From positions 1 through 53,743 of the forward strand of contig JAFMCM010000008.1 of NCBI GenBank assembly GCA_017857755.1: 53,743 bases of DNA. Reading direction: 5' to 3'. This document shows positions 4,891 to 44,262 of this stretch, in pieces. The number at the start of each line of letters is the position of its first letter. Positions within the stretch are counted from its first letter, which is position 1. The translations under genes and the position numbers were made by a program. This stretch comes from Methylophilaceae bacterium. Lineage in GTDB: Bacteria; Pseudomonadota; Gammaproteobacteria; Burkholderiales; Methylophilaceae. The notes below the pieces were generated by a model. That model had not been told where the DNA came from and did no database searches. It saw only the letters and a list, made by a program, of their open reading frames with translations.

Positions 4891-5688
4891 TCAAATGAAT
4901 GTAGGCGCTGCAGGTGTGCCTGCTGAAACGGTAAGGACTTCGAAACCGCTATTGGTGACTAAAATAGTGTGCTCCCATTGCGCCGATAAGCTACGGTCTT
5001 TTGTGACGACTGTCCAGCCATCGGGCATATGTTTGATCTCCCGTTTTCCTGCATTAATCATGGGTTCAATAGTGAAAATCATGCCTTCTTTTAATTTAAC
5101 GCCAGTATTGGGTTTTCCATAATGTAAGACTTGCGGGTCTTCATGAAATACTTTGCCAATGCCATGTCCGCAAAATTCTCGCACTACGCTATAACCTGCG
5201 TTCTCAGCAAAGGTTTGAATGGTATGACCAATGTCACCTAAAGTGGCGCCTGGTTTCACTTGCTGTATGCCTAGCCACATCGCTTGATAGGTGATTTCTG
5301 ATAAACGTTTGGCCTGAATAGAAACTTCGCCCACATGAAACATACGGGAGGTGTCGCCATGATAACCCTCTTTGATTACGGTAATATCAATATTGACTAC
5401 GTCGCCATTTTTGAGGATTTTTTCACCTGGTACACCGTGACAAATTTGATGGTTGACTGAAGTGCAAATAGATTTAGGGTAGGGCGTATGTCCATCAGGC
5501 GCATAATTTAAAGGTGCTGGAATGGCCTGTTGAACGTTTACAATATAATCATGGCATAGGCGGTCTAGCTGTTCGGTAGTGACGCCATGCACGACAAAAG
5601 GGGTAATATAATCAAGAACTTCTGAGGCAAGCTTGCCTGCAATACGCATTTTTGCAATATCTTCTGCATGATGAATGGAAATGGCCAT
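4891..5688 (-). CDS. map: Type I methionine aminopeptidase
   Basis: This 265-residue enzyme removes the initiator methionine from new proteins. The pita-bread fold metal ligands are visible: NIDITVIKEGYHGDTSRMF supplies the two aspartates, GHGIGKVFHEDP a histidine, and TIEPM and QWEHTILV the glutamates. The length is typical of the short bacterial form without an N-terminal extension. It is divergent from rpsB, the classic arrangement, and its promoter must lie in the shared 5689-5895 region. glnD follows on the same strand. Confidence 0.97.
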   Translation of the reverse strand: MAISIHHAEDIAKMRIAGKLASEVLDYITPFVVHGVTTEQLDRLCHDYIVNVQQAIPAPLNYAPDGHTPYPKSICTSVNHQICHGVPGEKILKNGDVVNIDITVIKEGYHGDTSRMFHVGEVSIQAKRLSEITYQAMWLGIQQVKPGATLGDIGHTIQTFAENAGYSVVREFCGHGIGKVFHEDPQVLHYGKPNTGVKLKEGMIFTIEPMINAGKREIKHMPDGWTVVTKDRSLSAQWEHTILVTNSGFEVLTVSAGTPAAPTFI

Positions 5689-9903: not shown

Positions 9904-10725
9904 ATGCTTAGAACCCGCGTTATTACTGCAGTGGTATTGATTGCTGCTTTATTGCCAGCTTTGTTTTTTGCTTCTAATATGCTGTGGGCGGCGATTATAT
10001 TAGCCGTTTCTGTAGCCGCTATTTTCGAGTGGGCTGAGCTGATTGATTTACAAAAATCAATGTCTGTGGCTGTTGCTGTCGGTAGCGCGTTATTAGGCGC
10101 GGTTTTATTGCGCTTGATGCAAAAGTACGGCTTCCATTGGTTGTCTTATCAGGCGCTGCCGATTTTTGTGGTTAGTTTTATGTTTTGGTTATTGTTGGCG
10201 CCTATTTTATTAGCGAAGCGCCTGGTAATTCAAAACAAATTATTGCTGATGGTGATTGGGTTTTTGGTTGTTGTCCCTTTATCGCTAGCGTTGATTGTTG
10301 TTAAAGGTGCAAACGCTTGGCTATTATTAACACTGATGGCTGCTATTTGGGTTGCTGATAGTGCCGCTTACTTTGCTGGAAAACAGTTTGGTCAACGTAA
10401 ATTAGCACCCAGCATTAGTCCAGGCAAAACTTGGGAAGGTGTTTTTGGTGCGTTAATTGGAGTCACGCTTTTGGCTGCTATCTTATATGGCAATGACTGG
10501 TTATCCAATGTGCCTGTCTTTCCATTGTTATGGCTTGTTGCTGTGCTGGGTGTGATTGGCGATTTATTTGAATCTTTAATTAAACGCCAATTTAATAAAA
10601 AAGACAGTGGTAATACCTTGCCAGGACATGGTGGTATTTTAGATCGCATTGATGGTTTATTACCAAGCCTACCGATTGCTGTATTAGTGATTTATCTTTT
10701 TAACTGTTATCAGGTGCCTAGTTAA
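9904..10725 (+). CDS. cdsA: Phosphatidate cytidylyltransferase (CDP-diacylglycerol synthase)
   Basis: This polytopic inner-membrane enzyme of 273 residues makes CDP-diacylglycerol from phosphatidate and CTP for phospholipid synthesis. Several hydrophobic segments fill the first 180 residues. The signature region SISPGKTWEGVFGALIG and the C-terminal PGHGGILDRIDGL, with the metal-binding aspartates, are clear. It starts 13 bases after uppS and its stop codon touches the dxr start. Confidence 0.96.
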   Translation: MLRTRVITAVVLIAALLPALFFASNMLWAAIILAVSVAAIFEWAELIDLQKSMSVAVAVGSALLGAVLLRLMQKYGFHWLSYQALPIFVVSFMFWLLLAPILLAKRLVIQNKLLLMVIGFLVVVPLSLALIVVKGANAWLLLTLMAAIWVADSAAYFAGKQFGQRKLAPSISPGKTWEGVFGALIGVTLLAAILYGNDWLSNVPVFPLLWLVAVLGVIGDLFESLIKRQFNKKDSGNTLPGHGGILDRIDGLLPSLPIAVLVIYLFNCYQVPS

Positions 10726-19738: not shown

Positions 19739-20325
19739 GTATTGCGCTTATCTGCGGGGTCGATGAGGCAGGGCGCGGCCCGTTAGCTGGCGCGGTGTAC
19801 GCTGCTGCTGTTATTTTGCATCCTAAGAAGCCGATTGTTGGGCTTGCCGACTCTAAAAAGCTGGCTGAAAAAAAGCGTGATGCATTAGCCGTTGAAATCA
19901 AACAACATGCCCTTGCTTGGGCGATTGCCAGTAGTAGCGTTGAGGAGATTGATGAGATTAATATATTGCAGGCCAGTCTACTTGCCATGAAACGTGCCAT
20001 CGAATCCCTGCAGCTGACATTCAATACAGCGTTACACAGCCATACTATCCATGTGCAAGTAGATGGTAACCGTTGTCCTGATGTTAACGTTTCTTGTGAG
20101 GCGATTATAAAAGGAGACAGTAAAGTGCAAGCGATTTCTGCGGCATCTATTCTTGCAAAAACGGCGCGTGATGCCAACTTGTATGAGTTAGATAGGCTGT
20201 ACCCTATGTACGGTTTTGCGCAGCATAAAGGATATCCAACTGCTGCACATCTGGCGCTCTTGAAGCAATATGGCGTTTCACCAGTCCATAGACGTAGTTA
20301 TGGACCTGTTCGTGAGCTCCTTTAA
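19735..20325 (+). CDS. rnhB: Ribonuclease HII
   Basis: RNase HII nicks DNA 5' of embedded ribonucleotides. The motif [15 protein letters not shown] near the N-terminus holds the first two acidic catalytic residues. VQVDGN and [12 protein letters not shown] are also present. The length of 196 residues is normal. It is translationally coupled to lpxB (ATGA overlap). Its stop codon is one base from the stop of the convergent methyltransferase gene, and no terminator is visible. Confidence 0.97.
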
Positions 20326-20326
20326 A

Positions 20327-21058
20327 TTACGCCAATATTAAAAAAACGGTTGGTTGTTTGTGTAAATCAGGTAATGCAGTCTGTTTCCATGCTCGAATGC
20401 GTTTCGTCACAATAAACTCTTTTTCTAAGCTAATATTGCATGCAATGCATAATGTGGTTTCACTATCACAGTGGGCTAAAATAGCTTCAAGCATATGTTG
20501 ATTGCGAAAAGGAGTTTCAATAAATATTTGTGTTTCATTATATGTTTTGGCTCGGTGTTCCAATGCTTTTAACTGCTGAACGCGAGCTGCTCGTTCAGCT
20601 GGTAGATAGCCGAGAAAACTAAAACGCTGACCATTTAAACCAGATGCCATTAAGCTTAATAAAATCGAGCTGGGACCAACTAATGGAGCGACTCGAATCC
20701 CTTTTTTATGTGCCAATGCTGCTAATCGAGCGCCTGGATCTGCAATGCCAGGACAGCCAGCCTCAGACATTAATCCCACATCATTTCCTTCAAGAAGTGT
20801 GCTTAACAAATCAGGTAAGACTTTGTCTTCTGTACGCTTATCTAGGGTTTTTAATTGAATTTCTCTGATGGGCATGGGGTGTTGAATCGTAGTCAAGAAG
20901 TGGCGTGCAGTCTTTTCATTCTCAACGATAAATTCGTTCAAGGACTGCGTAATTTTAATCACATCTGGCGGCAATACTCGATTGGTATTATCCGAACCCA
21001 TCGTCACAGGAATAAAATAAAGGATGCCGTATTGGGTATTTTTTTGAGAGTCTGTCAT
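20327..21058 (-). CDS. SAM-dependent methyltransferase of the tetrapyrrole methylase / RsmI family
   Basis: The segment GNDVGLMSEAGCPGIADPGARLAALAHKKGIRVAPLVGPSSILLSLMASG (residues about 90-140) is the core of the RsmI-type tetrapyrrole methylase fold. The protein is 243 residues, shorter than RsmI (about 280), and its N-terminus differs (YGILYFIPVTMGSDN). It is probably the RsmI paralogue often found next to maf in beta- and gammaproteobacteria rather than RsmI itself. The substrate is unknown. It lies 242 bases downstream of maf on the same strand and meets rnhB tail to tail. Confidence 0.85.
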   Translation of the reverse strand: MTDSQKNTQYGILYFIPVTMGSDNTNRVLPPDVIKITQSLNEFIVENEKTARHFLTTIQHPMPIREIQLKTLDKRTEDKVLPDLLSTLLEGNDVGLMSEAGCPGIADPGARLAALAHKKGIRVAPLVGPSSILLSLMASGLNGQRFSFLGYLPAERAARVQQLKALEHRAKTYNETQIFIETPFRNQHMLEAILAHCDSETTLCIACNISLEKEFIVTKRIRAWKQTALPDLHKQPTVFLILA

Positions 21059-21300
21059 GAAGATTGAATGATTGTTCGGTGGGGTTAATTTACGGTGAGG
21101 TCAGCGCGACCAAAGTGTTGACATTTTGTACTTTGAGCGCTGTTAAACGTTCTATTGATCAACATTCTGTTCGCATTCCTTTCGGCTCAGAATCTGTTAT
21201 TGTGGTTAAGGCACTATTACAAGTTAGATGTTACACCTCTTTGATTATTCATGTTTAATCATTCATGATAGCGAGTGAATGTAATGCTTCACAGTCTGGC
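21059..21300. other. 242-base gap between maf and the methyltransferase, nothing recognised
   Basis: Both flanking genes are on the minus strand. The stretch has stop codons in every minus frame, a short inverted repeat ATTCTG / CAGAAT (21164-21193, 18-base loop) and a GGTC/GACC hairpin near 21098-21111. A 64-codon plus-strand frame exists but has no family resemblance. It has none of the RNase P RNA or tRNA landmarks I know. Confidence 0.3.
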
Positions 21301-21882
21301 TTAAATAATGTTAACACCTTCATTTTGTAGCATAGTGATGAGACTAATCAACGGCAATCCGATGAGGGCGTTAGGATCTTCTCCAGTCATACGCTCAATC
21401 AATGCAATGCCTAGGCCTTCTGACTTAGCACTTCCTGCGCATTGATAAGGCTGCTCCTTACTTAAATAATTTTCTATTTGTTCGTCAGTGTAGTTTCTAA
21501 ATTGTACTAAATACGGTACAACTGCTACCTGCATATTGCCTGTTTCTGCATTAAACAAACAGAGTGCGCTATGAAATGTCACTGATTGCCCACGCATCAT
21601 ACGCAGTTGTTTTGTGGCGTTGTTATGGTTCAAGGGCTTTCCTAATTGCACCCCATCCAGTGTGGCAACTTGATCACAGCCAATAATTAGCGAGTGTGGG
21701 TATTCAAAACCTACTTTTTTTGCTTTTTCTTGTGACAGGCGAAGGGCTGTTTCATGTGGTGCTTCGCCGTCTATGACGGACTCATCAAGATGTGGAGAGA
21801 CTGTACTAAAGTTAATTTGTAAACGCTGTAATAACTCGCGGCGATAAATAGAAGATGAAGCTAAAATAAGGGTTTGTTTCAT
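21301..21882 (-). CDS. yceF: Maf family nucleotide pyrophosphatase, YceF type (7-methyl-GTP pyrophosphatase)
   Basis: Maf proteins hydrolyse modified nucleoside triphosphates. The family motif [17 protein letters not shown] is at the N-terminus, the catalytic [12 protein letters not shown] (about residue 66-77) follows, then [31 protein letters not shown]. These match the YceF branch, which prefers 7-methyl-GTP, better than YhdE. The length of 193 residues is normal. In many relatives yceF neighbours yceD-rpmF; here the pyc pair lies between them. Confidence 0.93.
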
Positions 21883-21901
21883 TAAAAGAATCTCATTAAA
21901 T

Positions 21902-21930
21902 AAAAAAACCGACAGGGCTAACTGCCGGTT
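21902..21930 (-). terminator. Rho-independent terminator after pycB
   Basis: Read on the minus strand, AACCGGCAG pairs with CTGTCGGTT (one mismatch) around a 6-base loop and is followed by seven T residues (plus strand 21902-21908). It separates pycB from yceF, so yceF probably has its own promoter or depends on readthrough. Confidence 0.85.
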
Positions 21931-21948
21931 GTAATCAATGAATTGGGC

Positions 21949-23793
21949 TTAATCTGGTTGAATTTCAAGTAAAGATTCATCAGGTGTTACATTGTCACCT
22001 TTTTCCACATTGATAGAGACTACCGTACCTGTCGTTGACGCTTCAATTTCATTTTCCATTTTCATCGCCTCAATCACTAGCACTGAATCACCTGCCTTCA
22101 CTTTGTCGCCTATCGCGACTTTAATTGCCACAATCGTGCCTGGCATAGCAGTCGTTACACAGCCTTTATGATGTGGACGAGGGCGCCCGCTTGAGGATGA
22201 TGTTTTCTTTTTAACATTGGCGCCAGTGCTTTGTCCTGTCCCAGCCACCTCAATTTCGCTCAGTGTTTCCACCATAACTTCTTCAGCAATACCATCAACA
22301 GTGACGTAGATCGGGCGAAGCTCTTCACCTTCATGGCCTGTTCCAGTTAGTTTGATATGAAAAGTTTCTCCATGAAGTGTCACATTAAATTCATTCGGGG
22401 CATAACGAGGTCCGCTGGCATGGACTTCTTCTTTAGATAATAATTGCTCTGGCACTAAAGAATTGGCGTTTCGTTCCTGCAAGAAAGTTTCACCAATATC
22501 TGGGAACATGGCATAGGTTAAAACATCCTCCTCGCTTCTTGCTAGACGTTCAACATCGTTCGCTAGCTTTTTCATCTCAGGCTTCAGCAAGTCGGCTGGG
22601 CGGCATTCAATAGCAACAGCATCTCCAATTGCCAATTTCTTAACCTCTTCGTTAACAGCGCTGATAGGCTTGCCGTATTGACCTAAGAAGTAATTTTTGA
22701 CTTCATTGGTGATAGTAAAATAACGTTTGTCTGTCAACACGTTTAAAACAGCTTGTGTTCCAACGATTTGTGAAGTGGGTGTTACTAACGGCGGGTAACC
22801 TAAGTCTTCGCGCACACGTGGAATTTCTGCTAATACAGCATTCATCTTATCTAAAGAGCCTTGCTCTTTCAGTTGATTGCTTAAGTTAGAAATCATGCCG
22901 CCTGGCACTTGGTTGACTAGGACACGGGTATCAACACCAGTGTATGCACTTTCAAATTGCCAGTATTTTTTTCGCACTTCACGGAAGTACTCGCTAACTT
23001 CTTGTACGGCCGCAATATCCAAACCAGTGTCATATTCTGTACCTTGTAAGGCAGCAATAATACTCTCAGTTGTGGGGTGACTTGCCCCTTCACTAAAGGC
23101 AGAGTTACAGGTATCTATCATTGTTGCTCCATTCTCTACACCTCGCATTAAGTTAATGCTGGCCAAACCAGATGTTGCATGGCTGTGTAAATGAATAGGG
23201 ATGCTAATGGCGCTATTTAATGCTTTCACTAGCTCAGCCGTCGTTTGCGGCGTCAGTAAGCTTGCCATGTCTTTAATCGCAAGCGTATCACAACCCATTT
23301 CTTCTAATTCTTTTGCTAATGCAACAAAATGCGCCACATCATGCTTAGGGCTAGTTGTATAACTAATCGTACCTTCCGCTATTTTTTTAGCTTTTTTAAC
23401 TGCTTCGATAGAAGTTTTAAGGTTACGCATATCGTTCATGGCATCAAAAATACGGAAGACATCCACGCCGTTATCAGCGGATTTTTGTACGAAAGCCTGT
23501 ACAACATCATCAGAATAGTGACGATAGCCAAGTAAGTTTTGGCCACGCAATAGCATTTGAATTCTGCTATTTGGCAAGGCCTTACGTAGTTTGCTCAATC
23601 GTTCCCATGGGTCTTCTTTTAAGAATCGGACGCAAGCATCGAAGGTTGCGCCTCCCCAAGCTTCTAAGGACCAGAAGCCAATAGCGTCCAATTTAGAACA
23701 AATAGGTAACATGTCAGCTGTGCGCAATCGTGTTGCAATCATGCACTGATGACCATCGCGTAATACTAGTTCGGTAATATTTACTTTTTTCAT
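21949..23793 (-). CDS. pycB: Pyruvate carboxylase subunit B (carboxyltransferase plus biotin carrier)
   Basis: This 614-residue protein has an N-terminal carboxyltransferase domain (LRDGHQCMIATRLR, SLEAWGGATFD, LLRGQNLLGYR, IKDMASLL with the conserved lysine, IHLHSHATSG with zinc histidines) and a C-terminal biotinyl domain with EAMKMENE, after a Ser-rich linker near residues 525-545. The same architecture is OadA of oxaloacetate decarboxylase, but no membrane subunits (oadB, oadG) are present and a biotin carboxylase gene lies 19 bases upstream. Anaplerotic pyruvate carboxylase is therefore the better call. RDGHQ replaces the usual RDAHQ. Confidence 0.9.
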   Translation of the reverse strand: MKKVNITELVLRDGHQCMIATRLRTADMLPICSKLDAIGFWSLEAWGGATFDACVRFLKEDPWERLSKLRKALPNSRIQMLLRGQNLLGYRHYSDDVVQAFVQKSADNGVDVFRIFDAMNDMRNLKTSIEAVKKAKKIAEGTISYTTSPKHDVAHFVALAKELEEMGCDTLAIKDMASLLTPQTTAELVKALNSAISIPIHLHSHATSGLASINLMRGVENGATMIDTCNSAFSEGASHPTTESIIAALQGTEYDTGLDIAAVQEVSEYFREVRKKYWQFESAYTGVDTRVLVNQVPGGMISNLSNQLKEQGSLDKMNAVLAEIPRVREDLGYPPLVTPTSQIVGTQAVLNVLTDKRYFTITNEVKNYFLGQYGKPISAVNEEVKKLAIGDAVAIECRPADLLKPEMKKLANDVERLARSEEDVLTYAMFPDIGETFLQERNANSLVPEQLLSKEEVHASGPRYAPNEFNVTLHGETFHIKLTGTGHEGEELRPIYVTVDGIAEEVMVETLSEIEVAGTGQSTGANVKKKTSSSSGRPRPHHKGCVTTAMPGTIVAIKVAIGDKVKAGDSVLVIEAMKMENEIEASTTGTVVSINVEKGDNVTPDESLLEIQPD

Positions 23794-23812
23794 AATTAGA
23801 AATCTTTAATAA

Positions 23813-25231
23813 TTAAATGCCATGATGTGCTGCAATTGCAGCTGAAATAGCGGCCGCAATCAATTCAGGAGGGAGTTCAACCGCATAATTTGTTAATTCA
23901 GGATGCGATTCAACAAAGCTTGTATCAAAAGTGCCTGCCCTAAATTCAGGATGATTCATGATCTCTTGATAATAAGGAATTGTTGTTTTAATGCCATATA
24001 CTTCAATGTCATTTAATGCGCGTTTGCCACGCTCAATAACGCGTTCCCAATCTAAGGCCCATACGGTTAATTTTGCGCACATTGAATCGTAATAGGGTGG
24101 AATGACATAACCTGTATAAATGGCGGCATCCATACGTACGCCAGGCCCACCAGGTGAGTAATAACGTGTAATTTTACCAAAGCTAGGCAAGAAGTCATTC
24201 TTCGGATCTTCAGCATTAATCCTAAATTCCATTGCAAAACCACGATAGCTAATTTCGCTTTGTTTATATCTTAGCGGCAGACCAGAAGCAATGCGAATTT
24301 GCTCTTGCACAATATCAACGCCAGTAATTGATTCGGTGATGGTATGCTCAACCTGTAAACGTGTATTCATTTCCATAAAGTAAAAGCGATTGTCTGCATC
24401 TAACAAAAACTCAACCGTACCAGCATTACGATAACCAACAGCTTTAGCCGCCTTCACGGCTAAGTTTCCAATATATTCACGTTGTGTTGTTGAGAGCTGA
24501 GGGGAGGGCGCAATTTCAATTAACTTCTGATTACGTCGTTGAATGGAACAATCTCGCTCAAACAAGTGAATGGCATCGCCTTGGCTATCTGCTAAGATTT
24601 GCACTTCGATATGGCGTGGTTTGACGATACATTTTTCTAGAAACACTTCTGGCTTGCCAAACGCCTTACTCGCTTCAGAAATAACGCGTTCATAATTATT
24701 CAACAGATCATTTTCTGAATCACAACGACGGATTCCTCTGCCACCACCACCGTTGGTTGCTTTTAACATCACTGGATAACCAATTTTTTTTGCTAGGGCT
24801 ATTGCCTCATCTAAACTCTCGAGATTGCCATCACTACCTGGCGTACAAGGGATGCCTGCTTCCGTCATGGCGATACGTGCTTGAATTTTGTCACCCATTT
24901 TACGAATAACTGCACCACTAGGCCCAATAAAAGCAATGCCACGTTTTGCACAGATTTCGGCTAATTCAGGATTTTCAGATAGAAAACCATAGCCTGGATG
25001 TAAAGCATCACAGCCAGCGGCTGTTGCAATGTTCACAATATGATGTGCATTTAAATAGCCAGCAACTGGGTCGGAGCCCAAACTGTATGCCTCATCGGCT
25101 TTTTTAACATGTAGCGCGCGACGGTCTGCATCAGTATAAATGGCAACTGATTTAATGCCCATTTCTGAACAGGCGCGCACAATACGTACCGCAATTTCCC
25201 CACGGTTTGCTACTAGGATTTTTTTGAACAC
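23813..25231 (-). CDS. pycA: Pyruvate carboxylase subunit A (biotin carboxylase)
   Basis: An ATP-grasp enzyme that carboxylates biotin on the partner subunit. FKKILVANRGEIAVRIVRAC opens the N domain. The glycine-rich ATP loop MLKATNGGGGRGIRRC is near residue 160, and FMEMNTRLQVEHTITE near residue 280. I start at GTG 25231, which gives the family N-terminus; an ATG 14 codons upstream is in frame. The YTDADRRALHVKKADEAY stretch is more like PycA than acetyl-CoA carboxylase AccC. It pairs with pycB and is divergent from yceD. Confidence 0.92.
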   Translation of the reverse strand: MFKKILVANRGEIAVRIVRACSEMGIKSVAIYTDADRRALHVKKADEAYSLGSDPVAGYLNAHHIVNIATAAGCDALHPGYGFLSENPELAEICAKRGIAFIGPSGAVIRKMGDKIQARIAMTEAGIPCTPGSDGNLESLDEAIALAKKIGYPVMLKATNGGGGRGIRRCDSENDLLNNYERVISEASKAFGKPEVFLEKCIVKPRHIEVQILADSQGDAIHLFERDCSIQRRNQKLIEIAPSPQLSTTQREYIGNLAVKAAKAVGYRNAGTVEFLLDADNRFYFMEMNTRLQVEHTITESITGVDIVQEQIRIASGLPLRYKQSEISYRGFAMEFRINAEDPKNDFLPSFGKITRYYSPGGPGVRMDAAIYTGYVIPPYYDSMCAKLTVWALDWERVIERGKRALNDIEVYGIKTTIPYYQEIMNHPEFRAGTFDTSFVESHPELTNYAVELPPELIAAAISAAIAAHHGI

Positions 25232-25346
25232 ACTTGAGCTTTCTTTGAACTTCAAACTAGTTGATTGTATCATGTGGTTGGTTGCGGCAAAATACCAATT
25301 AATTAAAAATGTTGTATCCCCCTACATTATCAAGAGTCATAACACA

Positions 25347-25829
25347 ATGAAACCAACATTAATCAACAACCTAGAATTCGCCAAAAATACAGACGCCATT
25401 AGCCATGACATTAAAGTGGATAGTTGCTTACGTTTAAGTGAATTCATCACACACGATGCATCCCAAGCAAGTAGCATTCACTACACACTAAAGGGTAGTG
25501 AATCACAGTTTCATCTGCCCAGCTTGGCTTTGTCGATTAAAGCAAAGCTATCTGTCTTATGTCAACGCTGTCTGAAGCCGATGTGGCTCGACATTGATTT
25601 GGCTTTTCAATATGTTGTCGCGGATAAAGAGCCATTACCGTTTGAAGGTGATGAGGAGGTTGACTGGGTAGAAAGTGCACGCGAAATGAATGTAAATAAT
25701 TTGGTAGAGGACGAACTACTCATTGCAATGCCATTGGGCCCATTACATACACATGCTTGCACCCCACTAGTCAAAGAATCACTTCAAAAACCGAACCCCT
25801 TTGCGGTGCTGAAGGGCTTAATTAAATAA
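25347..25829 (+). CDS. yceD: DUF177 family protein YceD (23S rRNA accumulation protein)
   Basis: The 160-residue protein has the DUF177 centre LCQRCLKPM (about residues 71-79) and the typical C-terminus CTPLVKESLQKPNPFAVLKGLIK. YceD is linked to 23S rRNA accumulation, and the gene is nearly always joined to rpmF, as here (194 bases apart). The ATG at 25347 gives the family N-terminus; the frame is open further upstream into the divergent pycA region, but that extension does not resemble the family. Confidence 0.9.
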   Translation: MKPTLINNLEFAKNTDAISHDIKVDSCLRLSEFITHDASQASSIHYTLKGSESQFHLPSLALSIKAKLSVLCQRCLKPMWLDIDLAFQYVVADKEPLPFEGDEEVDWVESAREMNVNNLVEDELLIAMPLGPLHTHACTPLVKESLQKPNPFAVLKGLIK

Positions 25830-25900
25830 CCTTAATTTCGTTATGAGGTCTGATTCAGGCTGTTTTTAATGTAATACCTACAATATTGTGTGTTTACTTG

Positions 25901-25930
25901 TTTACATCAACACAATAAATAGATTATCAT
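25901..25930 (+). promoter_or_regulatory. Probable promoter of rpmF
   Basis: TTTACA (25901-25906) and TATCAT (25925-25930) are separated by 18 bases, each matching the sigma-70 consensus at five of six positions. Transcription would start near 25937, about 87 bases before rpmF. Confidence 0.5.
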
Positions 25931-26023
25931 TACGGATTAGCTGTTTAAAACGCAAATTAGATTTAAGATTTAGATTTTAGTGTTGCATTTTAGCAGAATT
26001 CATTTTTAGTTTGGAGTATTGAA

Positions 26024-31746: not shown

Positions 31747-31782
31747 AAAAAAGCCTGCACAATTGTTGTGACAGGCTTTTTT
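31747..31782 (+). terminator. Rho-independent terminator after fabF
   Basis: GCCTG-CACAA / TTGTG-A-CAGGC with a 3-base loop, flanked by AAAAAA and TTTTTT, forms a very stable hairpin (31747-31782) that could work in both directions. It lies 30 bases before pabC, which must have another source of transcription or rely on readthrough. Confidence 0.9.
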
Positions 31783-31812
31783 GTTGTCTCTCGCTATGGT
31801 TTAATGTGGGCT

Positions 31813-32634
31813 ATGCAAATCAATCAATCAACCCTTATCAATGGCAGTTTTAATGGTGTTATTTCAGCGCTTGATAGAGGTTTTTCTTATGGTGATGGTG
31901 TGTTCAGGACAATTAAAGTCGTTCAAGGCTTACCTGAACATTGGCCTGTACACTACCAAACCTTAGTAAAGGACTGTAGTGCGATTGGCATTGTTTGTCC
32001 AAGCGCGGATGACTTGATTAATGATTTTAAGCAACTGTTCTCGATTGATGAGTCAGTTGCAGTCGCTAAAATTATTGTCACGCGCGGGGAAGGGGAACGT
32101 GGTTATAATCCACCAGCAGTGACTCACCCGATGCGCGTGATGATTAAATCGAAACTACCTAACTACCCACAGGCTAACTTTGATGATGGTGTTGCGTTAC
32201 ATCTTTGCGAAACTCGTATCGCTCATCAACCAAGGCTTGCTGGTGTTAAGCACCTAAATCGATTAGAAAACGTGCTTGCACGCATGGAATGGCAAGATCC
32301 TTTAGTCGCTGATGGCGTTATGTTGGATGTTGTTGGCAATGTGATTGAATGTACAGCAGCTAATATTTTTGCACGTTATGGTAACTTGCTGATTACACCT
32401 AAACTCGATCAATGTGGTGTTGCAGGGATTACTCGACATCAAATTTTAAATCGAGCCATGCATCTAAAATTGCAAACAGCTGTAGAAACTTTTGATTTAA
32501 ACAAACTATTGGCAGCTGATGAAATCATCATTTGTAATAGCTTATTTGGTGCATGGCAAGTCCGACAATTCAATCATCAGCATTGGAAAAAACAAACCCT
32601 AGCCAGTCATTTACGTGAAGCATTGCACTCATGA
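31813..32634 (+). CDS. pabC: Aminodeoxychorismate lyase
   Basis: A fold-type IV PLP enzyme that makes 4-aminobenzoate for folate. LDRGFSYGDGVFRTIKV near the N-terminus, GVKHLNRLENVLARMEW with the PLP lysine (about residue 142), and the C-terminal DEIIICNSLFGAWQVRQF are typical of PabC. I start at ATG 31813, giving 273 residues; the frame is open upstream into the fabF terminator. The stop overlaps mltG by four bases (ATGA). Confidence 0.92.
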   Translation: MQINQSTLINGSFNGVISALDRGFSYGDGVFRTIKVVQGLPEHWPVHYQTLVKDCSAIGIVCPSADDLINDFKQLFSIDESVAVAKIIVTRGEGERGYNPPAVTHPMRVMIKSKLPNYPQANFDDGVALHLCETRIAHQPRLAGVKHLNRLENVLARMEWQDPLVADGVMLDVVGNVIECTAANIFARYGNLLITPKLDQCGVAGITRHQILNRAMHLKLQTAVETFDLNKLLAADEIIICNSLFGAWQVRQFNHQHWKKQTLASHLREALHS

Positions 32635-33626
32635 AAAGATTGCTTATTACTGCGGTTGCCGCCACTGTATTAGGTTTACTGATTTTTTTAATCTATTTAG
32701 ACCATTATGCAAAATCACCCTTACTCTTAGCAGATGCTACGCAAACTTTTTCAATTAAGCCTAAAAGCGGATTGACCAGTGTCGCCAATCAATTAGTTAA
32801 TCAAGGTGTAATTGAGAGTGCACTACCGTTTGTTTTACTCGCGCGCAGTCTTAATAAAGCGTCATCCTTGCAAGCTGGCGACTATACTTTAGAGCAAGGT
32901 ATCACGCCGCTAGCGTTGTTAACTGCTTTGAGTAAGGGAAAAAGAATGCAAGCTAAAATCACCTTTATTGAGGGTAAAACCTTTAAAGATATGCGTACAA
33001 AATTAACAAGTCATTCTGCAATTCATCATACGATAGCAAAAGCATCCGAGGCAGAAATCATGGCTCTAATTGGGGTAAAACAAAATCACCTTGAAGGCTT
33101 GTTTTTCCCTGATACTTATTATTTTGATCAAGGAACTGATGACATTGTCATTTTAAAACGAGCTTATCAAACCATGCTGGAAAAGCTTGAAACTGCTTGG
33201 CAACATAAAGCACCAGACTTGCCTTATCAAAATAGACATGAGGCTTTGATTATGGCTTCTATTATTGAAAAAGAAACAGGTAAAGCATCAGAACGGCCAA
33301 TGATTGCAGGTGTTTTTATTAACCGATTAAGAATAGGGATGCGTTTACAAACTGATCCAACAGTTATTTACGGCATGGGTGAACAGTTTAAAGGTAACAT
33401 CCGTCGTAAAGACTTGCTAACAGATACGCCTTATAACACCTATACTCGGGATGGCTTGCCGCCAACACCTATTGCCATGCCAAGCTTAGCGGCAATTAAT
33501 GCGGCGCTACACCCAGCTGCAACGAATGCACTTTATTTTGTCGGAAAAGGTGATGGTAGTCACGCATTCTCTCATTCGCTAAGTGAGCATAATCGAGCTG
33601 TAGCAAAGTATCAGCTTAAACATTAA
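32631..33626 (+). CDS. mltG: Endolytic murein transglycosylase MltG (YceG)
   Basis: MltG cuts nascent glycan strands in the periplasm. A single N-terminal membrane anchor (residues 5-23), then a LysM-like subdomain, then the catalytic domain with HEALIMASIIEKETG (catalytic Glu near residue 211), RLQTDPTVIYG and YNTYTRDGLPPTPI. The length of 331 residues is normal. It is coupled to pabC and followed by tmk, the conserved yceG-tmk-holB order. Confidence 0.96.
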   Translation: MKRLLITAVAATVLGLLIFLIYLDHYAKSPLLLADATQTFSIKPKSGLTSVANQLVNQGVIESALPFVLLARSLNKASSLQAGDYTLEQGITPLALLTALSKGKRMQAKITFIEGKTFKDMRTKLTSHSAIHHTIAKASEAEIMALIGVKQNHLEGLFFPDTYYFDQGTDDIVILKRAYQTMLEKLETAWQHKAPDLPYQNRHEALIMASIIEKETGKASERPMIAGVFINRLRIGMRLQTDPTVIYGMGEQFKGNIRRKDLLTDTPYNTYTRDGLPPTPIAMPSLAAINAALHPAATNALYFVGKGDGSHAFSHSLSEHNRAVAKYQLKH

Positions 33627-33645
33627 CCAAATAAGCAAATAAGCA

Positions 33646-34269
33646 ATGACTAAAATAGGTAAATTTATCACGTTAGAGGGAATGGATGGAGCAGGCAAAA
33701 GCACGCACATCCCCGATATCGTGCGCCTTATTGAGGCAAAAGGACAAACCGTTGTTTGTACACGTGAGCCAGGTGGAACGCCTTTGGCAGAAGAATTACG
33801 TGAAATATTATTACATCAGTCCATGCATGCGGAAACAGAAACATTGTTAATGTTTGCCGCTCGTAGAGAGCATATTGAACAGGTGATTTCACCAGCTATT
33901 GCGCGTGGCGATTGTGTACTATCTGATCGATTTACTGATGCAACATACGCTTATCAGTCTGGTGCAAAAGCGGTCTGTGTAGAGAAAATTCATGTGTTAG
34001 AAAATTGGGTGCAAGGTGAGTTGCAGCCTGACATGACCTTACTTTTTGATGTGCCAGTTGAAGTGAGTATTGCGCGTTTAGCTTCGGCGAGGGTACCTGA
34101 TAAGTTTGAGCGAGAGGGTGCTGATTTTTTTGCAAAACTGCGCAATGCTTATCTCAATCGCGCTAGAGAGAATCCAACTCGCTTTCGAATTATTGATGCC
34201 AATCAAGCACTGGATGTTGTGAAACAAGATGTGAAAGTAATAGTTGAAGAATTCTTATCAACTATATGA
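33646..34269 (+). CDS. tmk: Thymidylate kinase
   Basis: The enzyme phosphorylates dTMP to dTDP. The P-loop is [10 protein letters not shown] (about residues 11-20), the DR motif is [15 protein letters not shown], and the lid region is near [24 protein letters not shown]. The length is 207 residues. It lies between mltG and holB. Confidence 0.97.
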
Positions 34270-34276
34270 TATTAAA

Positions 34277-35257
34277 ATGATTTATTCTTGGCAGAAATCA
34301 CAGTGGCACCATCTTATGCAGCGTAAGGCTATGTTGCCGCATGCTATTTTATTACGCGGTGGCGCAGGAATTGGTAAGGATGATTTTGCTTTGCATTTAG
34401 CACAGGCGCTATTGTGTCATCAAGCTGGCGAGGAATCTGCCTGTGGCACCTGTTCAAGTTGCCTATGGTTTCAAGAAGATGCCCATCCTGATTTTAAATG
34501 CATCACGCCAACAGACGATTCTGAAGATACGGCGAGTAAGAAAAAAACCAAAAAAACACAAATTTCAGTGGCTCAAATTAGACAACTTTATGCGTTTTTG
34601 AGCCTATCAACACATCAAGTGCAAGGTAAGCGGATTATTTTAATTTCTCCTGCAGAAGCATTAAATCTCAATGCTGCCAATGCATTGCTAAAAATGCTCG
34701 AAGAGCCACCAGCAAACACTTTATTTTTACTGGTTGCTAGTCAACCACAGCGTTTATTAGCAACTATCATCAGTCGTTGCCAAGTACTTAATTTTTCTAT
34801 ACCACCAAAACATGATGCGATTGAATGGTTACGTAGCCAGCAGGTGAGCAATCCTCAAACGCTATTGACCTATGCTGGCGGTGCGCCATTAGCGGCACTT
34901 AGAATAGAGGGACAGCTAGCGGTTAATCAGCAATTGATTCAACAGCTTTCTAAAGGTAGAAAGCTTGACCCTTTTTCTACTGCTCCCCTGTTTTTAGCCA
35001 GCGGAATGGAGCGTGCGGTTGATGTGATTCAAAAATGGATATTTGATTTACTTCATTTTAGACTAACCAATACGGTCCATTATCATGCTCAACAGTTACA
35101 GGCTTTGCAAGTTTTGGCTAAAAGCGTAAACTTAGGTGGTTTATTGCAATTTGAACGCAGTCTGCTTGAAGCGAAAAAATCTGCTAACCATCCCTTAAGT
35201 AATGAAATGCAGTTAGAACAATTACTATTGCAATACGTCCATGTATTCAATATCTAA
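34277..35257 (+). CDS. holB: DNA polymerase III subunit delta prime
   Basis: A clamp-loader subunit of the AAA+ class. The modified P-loop is LLRGGAGIGKDDFA, and a zinc-binding module follows with CHQ ... CGTCSSC (about residues 46-63). ANALLKMLEEPPANTLFLL and ISRCQVL are standard. A Lys-rich insertion (KKKTKKT) lies near residue 90. I use ATG 34277 (326 residues); the TTG at 34244 would overlap tmk. Only weak ribosome binding is visible. Confidence 0.93.
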   Translation: MIYSWQKSQWHHLMQRKAMLPHAILLRGGAGIGKDDFALHLAQALLCHQAGEESACGTCSSCLWFQEDAHPDFKCITPTDDSEDTASKKKTKKTQISVAQIRQLYAFLSLSTHQVQGKRIILISPAEALNLNAANALLKMLEEPPANTLFLLVASQPQRLLATIISRCQVLNFSIPPKHDAIEWLRSQQVSNPQTLLTYAGGAPLAALRIEGQLAVNQQLIQQLSKGRKLDPFSTAPLFLASGMERAVDVIQKWIFDLLHFRLTNTVHYHAQQLQALQVLAKSVNLGGLLQFERSLLEAKKSANHPLSNEMQLEQLLLQYVHVFNI

Positions 35258-35362
35258 TGTTAAAAAAAAATGAGAAGAGTGTTTAATTGAATTTAGATTT
35301 TGGAATCAAACCCTTAATAGAAAAATCTGCTGTGCTGTCGGTAGCCAGCAGTGGAAATGATG

Positions 35363-36139
35363 ATGTTTGTTGACTCACACTGCCACCTTAACTTCCCAGA
35401 GTTATCCCAAAATATACTATCAGTTAGACAGTTAATGCATGACGAAAAAATTGGTCACGCTCTATGTGTCTGTGTTACGTTAGATAAATTTCCTGAAGTG
35501 CTGAGCCTTGCTGAGCAGTTTGAGAATTTTTATGCTTCCGTAGGCGTGCACCCTGATTATGAAAATATACAAGAGCCAACAGTACATCAACTGGTTGAGC
35601 TAGCCGAGCATTCAAAGGTGGTAGCCATCGGTGAAACAGGCTTGGATTATTTTCGATTAACTGGCGATTTGGAATGGCAACGTGAGCGCTTTCGAACCCA
35701 TATCCGTGCAGCAATTATTGCACAAAAACCATTGATTATTCATACTCGAAAAGCAGTTGATGATACGCTTAATATTATGCGAGAAGAGGGCGCCGAACGG
35801 ATTGGTGGTGTGTTGCATTGCTTTACTGAAAGTTTAGAAATGGCGCTAGCAGCAATAGAAATGGGCTTTTATATTTCTTTTTCAGGTATTGTTACTTTTA
35901 AAAATGCATTAGAAATCAAAGAGGTAGCAAAAATGATACCCCTTAATCGAATGCTTATTGAGACAGATTCGCCTTACTTAGCCCCAACACCATTTCGTGG
36001 CCAAACCAATCAACCTGCTTATGTGAAATATGTAGCGCAAGAGATTGCACAGTTACGCGGAATCAGCTTGGAAGCAGTTGCGGAGGCCACAACAGCTAAT
36101 TTTTTCACCTTGTTTAAACAAGCACGTAGCATTGCTTAA
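35363..36139 (+). CDS. TatD family metal-dependent hydrolase (DNase)
   Basis: The metal ligands are in FVDSHCHLNF at the start, VAIGETGLDYF (about residue 90), PLIIHTRKAVDD, GVLHCFTES and LIETDSPYLAP. TatD proteins are 3'-5' exonucleases. By neighbourhood (tmk-holB-tatD) this is the YcfH-type member rather than TatD proper. ATG codons at 35357, 35360 and 35363 and a GTG at 35351 compete; GGAA at 35353-35356 best fits 35363. Length is about 258 residues. Confidence 0.93.
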   Translation: MFVDSHCHLNFPELSQNILSVRQLMHDEKIGHALCVCVTLDKFPEVLSLAEQFENFYASVGVHPDYENIQEPTVHQLVELAEHSKVVAIGETGLDYFRLTGDLEWQRERFRTHIRAAIIAQKPLIIHTRKAVDDTLNIMREEGAERIGGVLHCFTESLEMALAAIEMGFYISFSGIVTFKNALEIKEVAKMIPLNRMLIETDSPYLAPTPFRGQTNQPAYVKYVAQEIAQLRGISLEAVAEATTANFFTLFKQARSIA

Positions 36140-36906
36140 TGATGCAATTAACGATATTAGGTGCAGGTTCTAGCGCGGGTACACCTGCAATTGGGTGCGA
36201 GTGTGTAACATGTAGGTCAATAAATCCGCGCAATAAAAGAACGCGTTGTTCCAGCATCATTACATTAGCCTCAGGTGAAAATATTCTCATTGATACAGGT
36301 CCTGATTTACGCCTACAGGCCTTAAGAGAAGATATTTGCAGAGTTGATGCCGTCCTTTATACCCATACCCATGCAGATCATTTGCATGGGATTGATGATT
36401 TGCGCGGCTTTTGTCAAATCAATCGTAAACAAATCCCGCTATATGCTTATAAGGAAGCGGTAGCGCATATCAAAGAAAAATTTGGTTACACATTACGTGA
36501 ACCTTGTGATTATTGGGATTTGCCTGTGTTGAGCTTGCATGAAGTTGAAGCGCCTTTTGAATTGTTCGGCACTCTGATAACGCCGATTCCTATTATGCAC
36601 GGCCGTATGCAAATCAATGCCTATCGTATTGGAAACATCGCTTATATGACGGACGTGTCATCCATTCCAGCATCTTCAATGCCGCTGCTAGCCGATTTAG
36701 ACTTACTTTTAATCGATTGTTTACGCATAAAACCACATCCAACTCATATTAATATTGAACAAAGTTTAGACTACATAGGTCAGATTAACGCGAAACAAAA
36801 TATTTTGATTCATATGACACATGAATTAGAATATGAAGCTTTAAGCAAAAAGCTGCCTAGTCACGTTTCAGTTGGCTATGATGGAATGAAAGTTCAAATT
36901 AACTAA
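36139..36906 (+). CDS. Metallo-beta-lactamase fold hydrolase, PhnP-like
   Basis: The protein of 255 residues has the HTHADHLHGID motif (about residues 76-86) and a second set of ligands in PIMHGR and IDCLR ... HMTHE. The N-terminal GCECVTCRSINPRNKRTRC resembles the extra cysteine zinc site of PhnP phosphodiesterases. No phosphonate genes are nearby, so a phosphodiesterase activity on an unknown substrate is as far as one can go. The start shares one base with the tatD stop (TAATG). Confidence 0.85.
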   Translation: MMQLTILGAGSSAGTPAIGCECVTCRSINPRNKRTRCSSIITLASGENILIDTGPDLRLQALREDICRVDAVLYTHTHADHLHGIDDLRGFCQINRKQIPLYAYKEAVAHIKEKFGYTLREPCDYWDLPVLSLHEVEAPFELFGTLITPIPIMHGRMQINAYRIGNIAYMTDVSSIPASSMPLLADLDLLLIDCLRIKPHPTHINIEQSLDYIGQINAKQNILIHMTHELEYEALSKKLPSHVSVGYDGMKVQIN

Positions 36907-36963
36907 TCATCTCAACGAAATAGCAGTCAAATCGTTTATCCGCAAACTATTTAGGGAAATACA

Positions 36964-37338
36964 ATGAATTTTAATGCATTTAAAAAATTAAGCTTTAGCA
37001 TAGCTTTTACTACAATTGCTTTTGTAGGGCTAGCCAGCGCTGCAGGTAATACTTACACAGAGAACGAATTCTTGAATAACTTTAGTGGTAAAACAAAAAA
37101 AGTTGTCATGAATAAATTAGGCAAACCATTAAAAAAACAAATGGCTGTTAAGCCAACAAACGCAGAAAAAGTAACTGGGAAAACATTCAAAACGGATAAA
37201 AATTCTAAGCCAGTCAAAGTTGAGATGTGGTACTACAGTGGGATTGTGAAATATGATCCAACGCATGCTTACAAAGAGATTGAAATTACTTTTGTTAATG
37301 ATAATGTTGCCAATATTGCTTTTTTCAACAATCGATAA
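36964..37338 (+). CDS. Secreted protein of unknown function, SmpA/BamE-like fold possible
   Basis: The 124-residue protein has a clear signal peptide (basic start, hydrophobic residues 10-24, cleavage after LASA near residue 26). The mature part is rich in Lys and Asn. VVMNKLGKPLKK, then MWYYSG, then EIEITFVNDNVANIAFF follows the pattern of SmpA/OmlA-like domains (helix with LGxP, strand with W-Y-Y, strand ending in F-x-N-x-x-V). That fold is inferred; there is no lipobox. A GGGAAA sequence precedes the ATG and a terminator follows, so it is a single gene. It sits about 100 bases left of the dif site. Confidence 0.7.
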   Translation: MNFNAFKKLSFSIAFTTIAFVGLASAAGNTYTENEFLNNFSGKTKKVVMNKLGKPLKKQMAVKPTNAEKVTGKTFKTDKNSKPVKVEMWYYSGIVKYDPTHAYKEIEITFVNDNVANIAFFNNR

Positions 37339-37356
37339 TTGAATTCATCTTAAGTT

Positions 37357-37383
37357 AAAAGCCGTCAAACGACGGCTTTTTTA
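37357..37383 (+). terminator. Rho-independent terminator after the secreted protein gene
   Basis: A perfect 10-bp stem, AAAAGCCGTC / GACGGCTTTT, with loop AAAC (37357-37380) followed by further T residues. It ends 52 bases before the dif site. Confidence 0.93.
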
Positions 37384-37434
37384 TCATCTACGTGATAGAA
37401 GTGTGAGAGTTTCTGCTTTCAATCTCAATATATA

Positions 37435-37462
37435 ACTTCGCATAATGTATATTATGTTAAAT
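37435..37462. other. dif: Chromosomal dif site (XerC/XerD recombination, replication terminus)
   Basis: Recalled E. coli dif matches 25 of 28 bases. The left (XerC) arm ACTTCGCATAA matches at 8 of 11. The centre TGTATA and the right (XerD) arm TTATGTTAAAT match at every position. The two arms form the expected imperfect inverted repeat (GCATAA / TTATGT) around the 6-base centre. XerC and XerD resolve chromosome dimers here with FtsK. It lies in a 224-base gap between a terminator and the next gene. I see no second copy, which argues for the chromosomal site rather than an integrated element. Family knowledge plus near-identity make this confident; function is inferred. Confidence 0.93.
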
Positions 37463-37562
37463 AGTAGATAAATGATCGTTCATACTTGAATAATTGAACC
37501 CTCTAATGAAAGCATAATCTATTACAATGTTGATATTTAAAAATAAGTGATTAAAGATAAAC

Positions 37563-37913
37563 ATGGAAGAAAACTTGGTTAAAACAAATACGGAAAATGC
37601 AGCACATTTATTAGAAATCTTTTCATGGGTGCTGATGTTTGTGATTGGAACAGTCATTGTTTCTGTAATAGTCGTCGATATTATGGGTGATGAATTTGAG
37701 AAACCAAATTCAGATTTTTGGCCGATTATGGTGCTCTGTGTTGCAATTATTACCGTTATTTTGCTCACCGCTAGAGGGTTAAAAAAACATCAACAATGGG
37801 CTAGGTATGTAGGCGGCTTAATCGGCACTATCGCATTAGCCGCTTTCCCTGTTGGAACTGTGTTGGGTTTATTTATTTTAAGTAATCTCAAAAAAGGATG
37901 GCATGAACGCTAA
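37563..37913 (+). CDS. Unrecognised small inner-membrane protein
   Basis: The 116-residue protein has three hydrophobic segments, at about residues 17-40, 54-70 and 82-106. The first two are separated by an acidic loop (DIMGDEFEKPNSD) and the second is followed by a basic stretch (ARGLKKHQQWARY). The end is LSNLKKGWHER. I do not recognise the family. The gene starts 100 bases right of the dif site, has only a weak ribosome binding site (TTAAAGATAAAC), and precedes the ccm operon by 87 bases. The high content of coherent membrane segments supports it being real. Confidence 0.65.
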   Translation: MEENLVKTNTENAAHLLEIFSWVLMFVIGTVIVSVIVVDIMGDEFEKPNSDFWPIMVLCVAIITVILLTARGLKKHQQWARYVGGLIGTIALAAFPVGTVLGLFILSNLKKGWHER

Positions 37914-38000
37914 TATAATCAAATTGATTCATGTCGCTTGCATCGGTATTGTGGCTTAAAATCGATTAAAATAACCGCATATTCCTTATACAAGATTCGC

Positions 38001-38657
38001 ATGGCACCAACGGCATTAAACAATCATCTCACCGTCCGCAATTTAGCTTGCGTTCGTGGTGAGCGCGTCTTGTTTAAACATCTTTCATTTGAGTTGAATA
38101 GTGGAAAATTACTTTTTGTACAAGGTGAAAACGGCAGTGGCAAAACATCCTTATTACGGACTTTGGCTGGCTTATCTTTGCCGACAATAGGTGATATTGA
38201 CTGGAATACGCAAACAATAAAAATTCTTGCTGAGGATTATTATGGGCAGGTTCTTTATATTGGTCATTTAGCTAGCATTAAAGATGAGTTAAGCCCTGTT
38301 GAAAACATACAATTCGCCCTTTCCCTTTCTGGATATAGGGTTGACCGTTCGCAAGTAGTTGGTGCGCTTGATACATTAGGTGTAGGGCGTTGTGCCGATT
38401 TGCCGTCGCGCGTGTTATCACAGGGGCAAAAAAGACGGATTGCACTTGCCCAACTATGGTTGCAAGACGATCCAGCATTAATTCCATTATGGGTGTTAGA
38501 TGAGCCGTTTACAGCCCTTGATATCAGTATGGTTGAAAAACTGACACAACATATTGAAAAGTATGTCACTAGCGGTGGAATGGTGGTTTTTACATCTCAT
38601 CAAATACCAAGCTTCGATGTGAGTTTAATACAAGATTTGCAGTTAGGTCAGGTATGA
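38001..38657 (+). CDS. ccmA: Heme exporter ATP-binding protein CcmA
   Basis: The ATPase of the CcmABCD module, which frees heme-loaded CcmE for cytochrome c maturation. Walker A is GENGSGKTSLL (about residues 42-52), the signature is LSQGQKRR, and Walker B is LWVLDEPFTALD. I start at ATG 38001 (218 residues); the frame is open further upstream without family similarity. It overlaps ccmB by four bases and heads the ccmABCDEFGH operon. Confidence 0.95.
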   Translation: MAPTALNNHLTVRNLACVRGERVLFKHLSFELNSGKLLFVQGENGSGKTSLLRTLAGLSLPTIGDIDWNTQTIKILAEDYYGQVLYIGHLASIKDELSPVENIQFALSLSGYRVDRSQVVGALDTLGVGRCADLPSRVLSQGQKRRIALAQLWLQDDPALIPLWVLDEPFTALDISMVEKLTQHIEKYVTSGGMVVFTSHQIPSFDVSLIQDLQLGQV

Positions 38658-42691: not shown

Positions 42692-43216
42692 ATGAGATTA
42701 AAAGCGCTCATTCCTTTTGTACTGTTTATCATATTGATTGCCTTTTTGGGTAAAGGTTTGTTCTTAAATCCGAGAGAAGTCCCTTCCCCACTCGTGGGAA
42801 AACCAGCACCTAACTTCACAGCCCCTATTCTTGGAGATGCAACTAAGACCTTCTCAAATGCTGATATGAAGGGAAAAGTATGGATGCTGAATATATGGGC
42901 TTCATGGTGCGCAGCTTGTCGTGATGAACATTCTCTTTTACTAGAAATGCGCAAATATGACCTTCCACTTTATGGTATGGCTTATAAGGACGTTGAACAA
43001 GATGCCATTGATGTGTTAGCTAAAATGGGTAATCCCTACATCGTCACGGCAACGGACCAAGATGGTCGGATTGGTATTGATTATGGTGTTTATGGCGTAC
43101 CTGAAACATATCTCATTGATCAATCAGGCATTATTCGTTATAAACAAATCGGCCCAATAACTCCAATGGATTTGCGTGAGAAAATCCTGCCATTATTAAA
43201 GGAGCTCAATTCATGA
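42692..43216 (+). CDS. ccmG: Periplasmic thioredoxin CcmG (DsbE)
   Basis: An N-terminal anchor is followed by a thioredoxin fold with the active site WASWCAACRDE (about residues 69-79) and the cis-proline region YGVYGVPETYLID. CcmG keeps apocytochrome cysteines reduced. The CAAC site differs from the more common CPTC or CVPC; active-site variation of this kind is known in the family. The length is 174 residues, and the end overlaps ccmH by four bases. Confidence 0.94.
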   Translation: MRLKALIPFVLFIILIAFLGKGLFLNPREVPSPLVGKPAPNFTAPILGDATKTFSNADMKGKVWMLNIWASWCAACRDEHSLLLEMRKYDLPLYGMAYKDVEQDAIDVLAKMGNPYIVTATDQDGRIGIDYGVYGVPETYLIDQSGIIRYKQIGPITPMDLREKILPLLKELNS

Positions 43217-43617
43217 TGAAACTGCGCTATGTGCTATTGACATTAGTGGTCACTTTTTCCAGCCTAAGTGTTGCTACCGACAAGCCAAGCACTGCGGCAA
43301 CAGAAGTTAGATTAAAAAGATTATCAACCGAGCTACGTTGCCTTGTTTGTCAAAATAGTACATTAGCTGATTCAGATGCAGAATTAGCCCAAGATTTACG
43401 TAATGAAATTCGTACATTGATTGATGGTGGAAAAACAGATGAAGAAGTCGTTGCCTTTTTAGTTGCCCGCTATGGGGATTTTGTTACCTTTCGCCCACCA
43501 GTGAACGCCAATACCGCCCTACTTTGGTTTGGACCATTTATTATGTTGTTTATTGGGGCGCTGGTATTAATTTTAATGCTAAAAAAACGCTCAGCAGTCC
43601 TTGGCGCAGAGCCGTAA
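43213..43617 (+). CDS. ccmH: Cytochrome c biogenesis protein CcmH (CycL)
   Basis: The 134-residue protein has a signal peptide, the LRCLVCQNSTLADSDA motif (redox cysteines about residues 42 and 45) with the three-helix DLRNEIRTLIDGGKTDEEVVAFLVARYGDFV domain, and a C-terminal membrane anchor (residues 99-121). It is the short CcmH form without a TPR domain. Such forms normally work with CcmI, which is not present downstream. Confidence 0.95.
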   Translation: MMKLRYVLLTLVVTFSSLSVATDKPSTAATEVRLKRLSTELRCLVCQNSTLADSDAELAQDLRNEIRTLIDGGKTDEEVVAFLVARYGDFVTFRPPVNANTALLWFGPFIMLFIGALVLILMLKKRSAVLGAEP

Positions 43618-43729
43618 CAACCTGACCCCTACTCAGTTTCGTCTCGTCACACATTTAAGGACTGGACTTGATTAAAAACACAGGTGTCCGATTGATGAAA
43701 GAAGTGAACTAGTCAAACCAACACGAGTA

Positions 43730-43748
43730 CGCAGCTAATGCTGCGCGT
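43730..43748. terminator. Weak hairpin between ccmH and the doxX gene
   Basis: CGCAGC / GCTGCG around TAAT (43730-43745), followed by CGTTT. The poor T run makes termination uncertain. It is the only hairpin of note between the convergent ccmH and doxX genes. Confidence 0.35.
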
Positions 43749-43761
43749 TTCCCATTTCGTC

Positions 43762-44262
43762 TTAACGTTTGCAACGCTTATTCAACCAGTCATCAACACT
43801 TAAGCGCCCAGCACCATTAAAAAATAGAGGCAGTAACATAATCAGTAATAACAAAGGCAATTTATAGTTGCCAAAACCTTTGTTCGTAATGGCATATCCT
43901 TGCCATAGCTCTCCCAAAGGATTCCAACTTTCTGGCCAGTGTACAGTAGCTATAGCTACAATTGTCAATACAATTAGAGAAGCTGAAAAAAAACGTGTTG
44001 CAAGGCCTAATATCAAGGCGATCGCACCAAATAGTTCAAAATAAGCAGAAAGTGCCCAACTAAAATCAGGAGAGACTAAGTTGAAAGGAAATGGGAAAGT
44101 GAGCGTGGCAAACCAATTTTCACCGTTCAATTTTGCAAGGCCAGCTTCACCAAACTCCCAAGCTAAAATGAATCTTAGCATTAAGTACGGAAACCAACTA
44201 CCAATCGACTCCAGAATGGAAATTACCCATTGATAGCTTTTGCAAATGTGCTGATACCGCAT
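43762..44262 (-). CDS. DoxX family membrane protein
   Basis: The 166-residue protein has four hydrophobic segments and the DoxX pattern: an N-terminal RFILAWEFGEAGLAKL stretch, then FSWALSAYFELFGAIALILGLATRF, then PLLLLIMLLPLFFNGAGRLSVDDWL. DoxX proteins are linked to quinone or thiol oxidation, but the role of this one is unknown. It lies 46 bases downstream of msrQ on the same strand, so it may be co-transcribed with the methionine sulfoxide repair pair. Confidence 0.85.
   Translation of the reverse strand: MRYQHICKSYQWVISILESIGSWFPYLMLRFILAWEFGEAGLAKLNGENWFATLTFPFPFNLVSPDFSWALSAYFELFGAIALILGLATRFFSASLIVLTIVAIATVHWPESWNPLGELWQGYAITNKGFGNYKLPLLLLIMLLPLFFNGAGRLSVDDWLNKRCKR

Follow-up and report, generated by a model that had tools for sequence, protein, structure and literature searches.

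The closest described counterparts of the site reported here are dif sequences printed in Table 1 of PMC2731167 (Carnoy and Roten), which is also the source of the E. coli dif that we used as reference. The table holds a dif of Thiobacillus denitrificans, a species listed there under a different order, Hydrogenophilales, and a dif of Methylobacillus flagellatus KT, most likely a member of the same family as our genome. A literature search on dif sites in Methylophilaceae turned up a single paper, on Methylocystis.

We analysed a 53.7 kb contig (C31; "the window", meaning this whole stretch of DNA) from a Methylophilaceae genome of 1,598,151 bases in 67 contigs that is 99.4% complete. On its forward strand it carries the 28-mer ACTTCGCATAATGTATATTATGTTAAAT at 37435-37462, which in sequence fits the architecture of proteobacterial dif/XerCD sites, namely a conserved XerD arm, a 6-bp centre and a XerC arm. 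The site and its immediate neighbours are as follows.

37435..37462, + strand: dif site, 28 bp, from its sequence match to E. coli dif and to the published dif table
37435-37445, + strand: XerC arm of dif, whose outermost bases are the variable part
37446-37451, + strand: central hexamer of dif, TGTATA, identical to E. coli
37452-37462, + strand: XerD arm of dif, TTATGTTAAAT, identical to E. coli
36964..37338, + strand: 124-aa small ORF flanking the XerC arm, without matches to NCBIfam, Pfam or PHROGs
37563..37913, + strand: 116-aa small ORF flanking the XerD arm, whose only match, to MerC, is below the Pfam cut-off

A preliminary description of this DNA had claimed identity with E. coli dif at 25 of 28 bases, with the whole TGTATA centre and the whole XerD arm conserved and all differences in the outer XerC arm. 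The E. coli sequence that it used agrees with the one printed in PMC2731167, and the comparison with that table bears out each part of the claim: only positions 1, 2 and 4 of the window site differ from the E. coli sequence. The alignment to known betaproteobacterial sites that the same description proposed gives a closer likeness still, with all 28 bases shared with the tabulated T. denitrificans dif and 27 of 28 with that of M. flagellatus KT, which has A where the window has T at position 24, in the XerD arm. The likeness to T. denitrificans is one of the site itself, flanks aside; according to PMC2731167 its dif is intergenic, like ours, and lies 9,321 bp from its own skew peak. None of 100 dinucleotide-preserving shuffles of the window yielded a match at up to three mismatches, and from base composition alone 7e-7 chance matches are expected per window and 2e-5 per genome. 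With a GC content of 0.214 and complementarity at 8 of 11 arm pairs, the 28-mer is low in G+C and partly palindromic.

At up to three mismatches, the final 24 bases of the site were located at a single place among the 67 contigs of its own genome (reversed control, 0 places). The window search also found one site, as had been reported earlier, and the several genomic copies that had been named as grounds for doubting a dif were not seen. Its intergenic location likewise stands: the preceding forward ORF ends at 37338, 96 bp short of the site, and the next forward ORF opens 100 bp beyond it, at 37563; a mechanically called minus-strand ORF (37457-37768), mostly opposite the latter, covers the last 6 bases of dif. 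Scanning 36900-38100 for promoters and terminators returned nothing bearing on dif, and the window held no tRNAs and no RNA families at gathering score. Profile searches of the genome recovered the proteins that such a site would need, with XerD on C38 (390.9 bits) and XerC on C65 (354.4 bits), both above cut-off; the two models recover the same pair of genes, the one on C38 scoring best as XerD and the one on C65 as XerC. A single FtsK-gamma domain (97.8 bits) was found on C42, in an open frame of 780 residues.

Several lines of evidence, namely the sequence, its single copy, its position half-way from dnaA in relatives, a skew switch nearby, the convergence of KOPS and the genes for XerC, XerD and FtsK-gamma, together indicate that this is almost certainly the single chromosomal dif of a small-genome betaproteobacterium, of the canonical XerCD/FtsK type. 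The likeness to the E. coli system thus extends beyond the 28-mer, since XerC, XerD and FtsK-gamma are encoded and GGGNAGGG octamers are directed at dif in loci of the family. The general picture is unchanged, the site being an ordinary example of a well-known kind. It confirms that raw sequence is enough to recognise a canonical dif, and it gives a small, fragmented genome a dependable anchor for its terminus.

The site is widespread in the family. We obtained a dif match in 108 of 120 family genomes (our own included; the 120 were drawn from a larger group) and in 91 of the 93 with a completeness of 90% or more and a contamination of 5% or less. Four of six genus members match, and the two that lack a match are 76% and 48% complete. 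Twelve of the 120 had no match at up to three mismatches; a looser pattern hit 7 places in these twelve, against 5 for the reversed control, and no hit had a dif centre. Two genomes of at least 90% completeness (G028 and G059) are among those without a match at up to three mismatches and also lack a dif by the looser pattern. The first four bases read ACTT, ATTT or TATT in 47 of 51 loci (two of the 51 being the same site in the genus mate G002), ACTT being the commonest variant; the XerC arm of the window is therefore of the usual family type.

Chromosomal position was measured in relatives, our own genome being fragmented. dnaA was sought in 40 of the 120, most of them picked because their contigs are long, and in all 26 single-contig relatives among these the distance from dif to the start of dnaA was close to half of the circle (mean 0.507, sd 0.017, range 0.471-0.538). 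The value was 0.503 in the genus mate and 0.527 in the single-contig G062; a further single-contig relative, G079, gave 0.488 by hand computation, and the two genomes checked alongside it (G085 and G117) are each in several contigs. In these relatives dif lies opposite the replication origin. It is read on the same strand as dnaA in 20 of the 26 and on the opposite strand in 6; this orientation was considered as evidence and rejected as uninformative, and skew falls across any terminus, whichever the reading direction.

GC skew places its switch close by. Within the 53.7 kb of the window the cumulative skew peaks at 43483, 6,035 bp beyond dif, and over a 160 kb local stretch of the genus mate the local peak is at +6,163 bp. 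The preliminary description would have been undermined by a skew terminus far from the site; a distance of 6.0 kb in the skew of the window is of the usual size, given the median of 7,277 bp that PMC2731167 reports for proteobacteria. The keto skew of the window peaks at 43574. In 20 kb samples of the genus mate, with the one straddling dif left out, skew was negative in 9 of 10 from dif to dnaA and positive in 8 of 9 on the other arm. The skew of the window also follows gene strand: over 20001-26000, a stretch with its main ORFs in reverse, the value drops to -0.030. When the 10 kb to the left and to the right of dif were compared, the expected fall was seen in 15 of 20 relatives and the left side was not the higher in 5, so that skew over 10 kb flanks is a weak marker of dif.

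Further evidence comes from the polarity of KOPS. These features of the window bear on it.

5477..5484, + strand: KOPS-like octamer GGGTAGGG, pointing towards dif
24501..24508, + strand: KOPS-like octamer GGGGAGGG, pointing towards dif
32087..32094, + strand: KOPS-like octamer GGGAAGGG, pointing towards dif
42781..42788, - strand: KOPS-like octamer GGGAAGGG, pointing back towards dif, in a stretch where skew is still positive
43483, no strand: GC-skew peak; shortly after it, at 43617-43762, the main ORFs turn from the forward to the reverse strand

All four octamers of the window, three forward before the site and one reverse after it, are directed at dif; four were reached in 11 of 100 shuffles of the window, and their number is thus no excess and too small to decide alone. 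We therefore counted the octamer GGGNAGGG over 44 dif-centred loci from the 108 matching genomes: the window, the 160 kb stretch of the genus mate, 40 pieces of roughly 10 to 20 kb, G003 and G004. It was directed at dif in 128 of 130 cases, with 57 on the plus and 0 on the minus strand before dif, and 2 on the plus and 71 on the minus strand after it; the 130 are not all independent, since the loci share descent. When possible switch points were scanned in 1 kb steps over the range -8 to +8 kb, the fewest violators, two, were at dif itself, compared with 4 at -1 kb and 3 at +1 kb. Among 56 motifs made by shifting A and N inside the octamer, the KOPS order had the top polarity (0.985; the next, with 26 cases, reached 0.923, and the other 55 pooled 0.735), and it is about three times as frequent as the mean of the control motifs. 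G-rich control motifs lean in the same direction, less strongly. Our counts show that the FtsK guidance motif known from E. coli also fits this betaproteobacterial family. A polarity switch of KOPS at dif is known in other replicons according to PMC13342612.

If the E. coli model holds here, recombination between sister chromosomes would produce a dimer. FtsK would load on KOPS octamers, translocate towards dif and bring both dif copies together at the septum, where FtsK-gamma would activate the XerD bound at the XerD arm. Strand exchange across the 6-bp centre, by XerD first and XerC second, would then convert the dimer into two monomers. The earlier reading of the site as marking the replication terminus is supported by the skew peak, the single copy, the 26 relatives and the KOPS flip, with one refinement: dif is where dimers are resolved and FtsK converges, not strictly the point at which forks meet. 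That distinction is drawn in PMC3025954 and PMC13342612. Some observations weigh against the dif reading: the GC-skew switch and main gene-strand switch of the window are 6 kb off dif, five of 20 relatives lack the expected fall of skew, twelve family genomes gave no match, and the window by itself has no excess of KOPS.

The genes around the site were compared with those of relatives. Before dif, at 31768-37338, lies a block encoding a class IV aminotransferase, a YceG-like protein, thymidylate kinase, holB, TatD, an MBL hydrolase and the small ORF; ccmA and ccmB come after the ORF at 37563..37913. We looked near dif for 11 proteins of the window, using 63 loci from 61 relatives; 43 of these relatives offered long loci, of roughly 10 to 20 kb, and the other 18 covered at most about 3 kb. 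The block, or parts of it, was found on the XerC-arm side with its orientation kept in 15 of the 61, from seven genera; in one of these, G018, the members are 8-10 kb off dif. It was missing from that side in 31 of the 43 long-locus relatives, so that its place beside dif is not a general rule, and none of the 11 proteins lay within 10 kb of dif in G062. The ccm genes of the XerD-arm side were found in three of the 61, all genus mates; one further CcmA match (L092, 26% identity) is probably a different ABC ATPase. Taking these results together, we lean towards the view that the E. coli-type KOPS flip is a sharper mark of dif than GC skew or gene strand and so defines the segregation terminus, and that the shared block beside dif in these 15 relatives looks as if the terminus locus were itself an inherited position, since lost in other lineages.

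The 6.0 kb between dif and the cumulative skew peak at 43483, where gene strand also switches, could be read as the mark of a decayed, inactive dif, its sequence kept while the terminus of replication and segregation had shifted to the skew peak. We regard this as highly unlikely. The site has kept an intact centre and XerD arm, an offset of this size is nothing unusual (the published median cited above is larger), and the sole minus-strand KOPS of the window, at 42781, falls between dif and the skew peak. Over the 44 loci a KOPS flip at dif leaves 2 violators of 130 whereas one at +6 kb leaves 46, a comparison in which most of the loci have their own skew peaks elsewhere.

Xer-exploiting elements carry dif-like sites, and a site of this kind might instead be the attachment remnant of such an element (a phage, an IMEX or a plasmid) and not the host dif. 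One relative, G025, carries a further site whose XerC arm is degenerate, at a distance of 113 kb from its first and beside ORFs that by eye resemble ParA and ParB, as an integrated element might leave. For the window site the probability of such an origin seems to us close to negligible, given that the site has one genomic place, that its flanks include thymidylate kinase, holB, TatD, ccmA and ccmB, and that the region is collinear with that of the genus mate (eight aligned pieces at 70-80% identity, with a ninth of 157 bp out of line). A phage origin in particular was considered and rejected, the 2.5 kb around dif having no match among phage records. Two of five flanking proteins do have PHROGs matches, the MBL hydrolase in one metal-dependent hydrolase family and CcmA in six (ABC transporter, SbcC-like or unnamed).

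Two dif places were found in 6 of the 108 matching genomes, and these second copies in no case bear on the window site. In G060 both places are one site, on overlapping contig ends. The second site of G025 (L076, G025:C4:433743-453742, near 10001) has an intact XerD arm and lies 54 bp before the ParA-like ORF, with the ParB-like ORF nearby and a transposase-like ORF further on, all judged by eye; it is possibly an element integrated at dif. G082 has two distinct dif sites (L081 and L082) with different flanks, each less than 1 kb from a contig end, which may stem from an element integrated at dif, from a second replicon or from a mixed assembly. The second site of G010 is close to one end of a contig of 11.7 kb, and that of G083 falls within an ORF of 267 residues, the second site of G106 consisting of the same letters.
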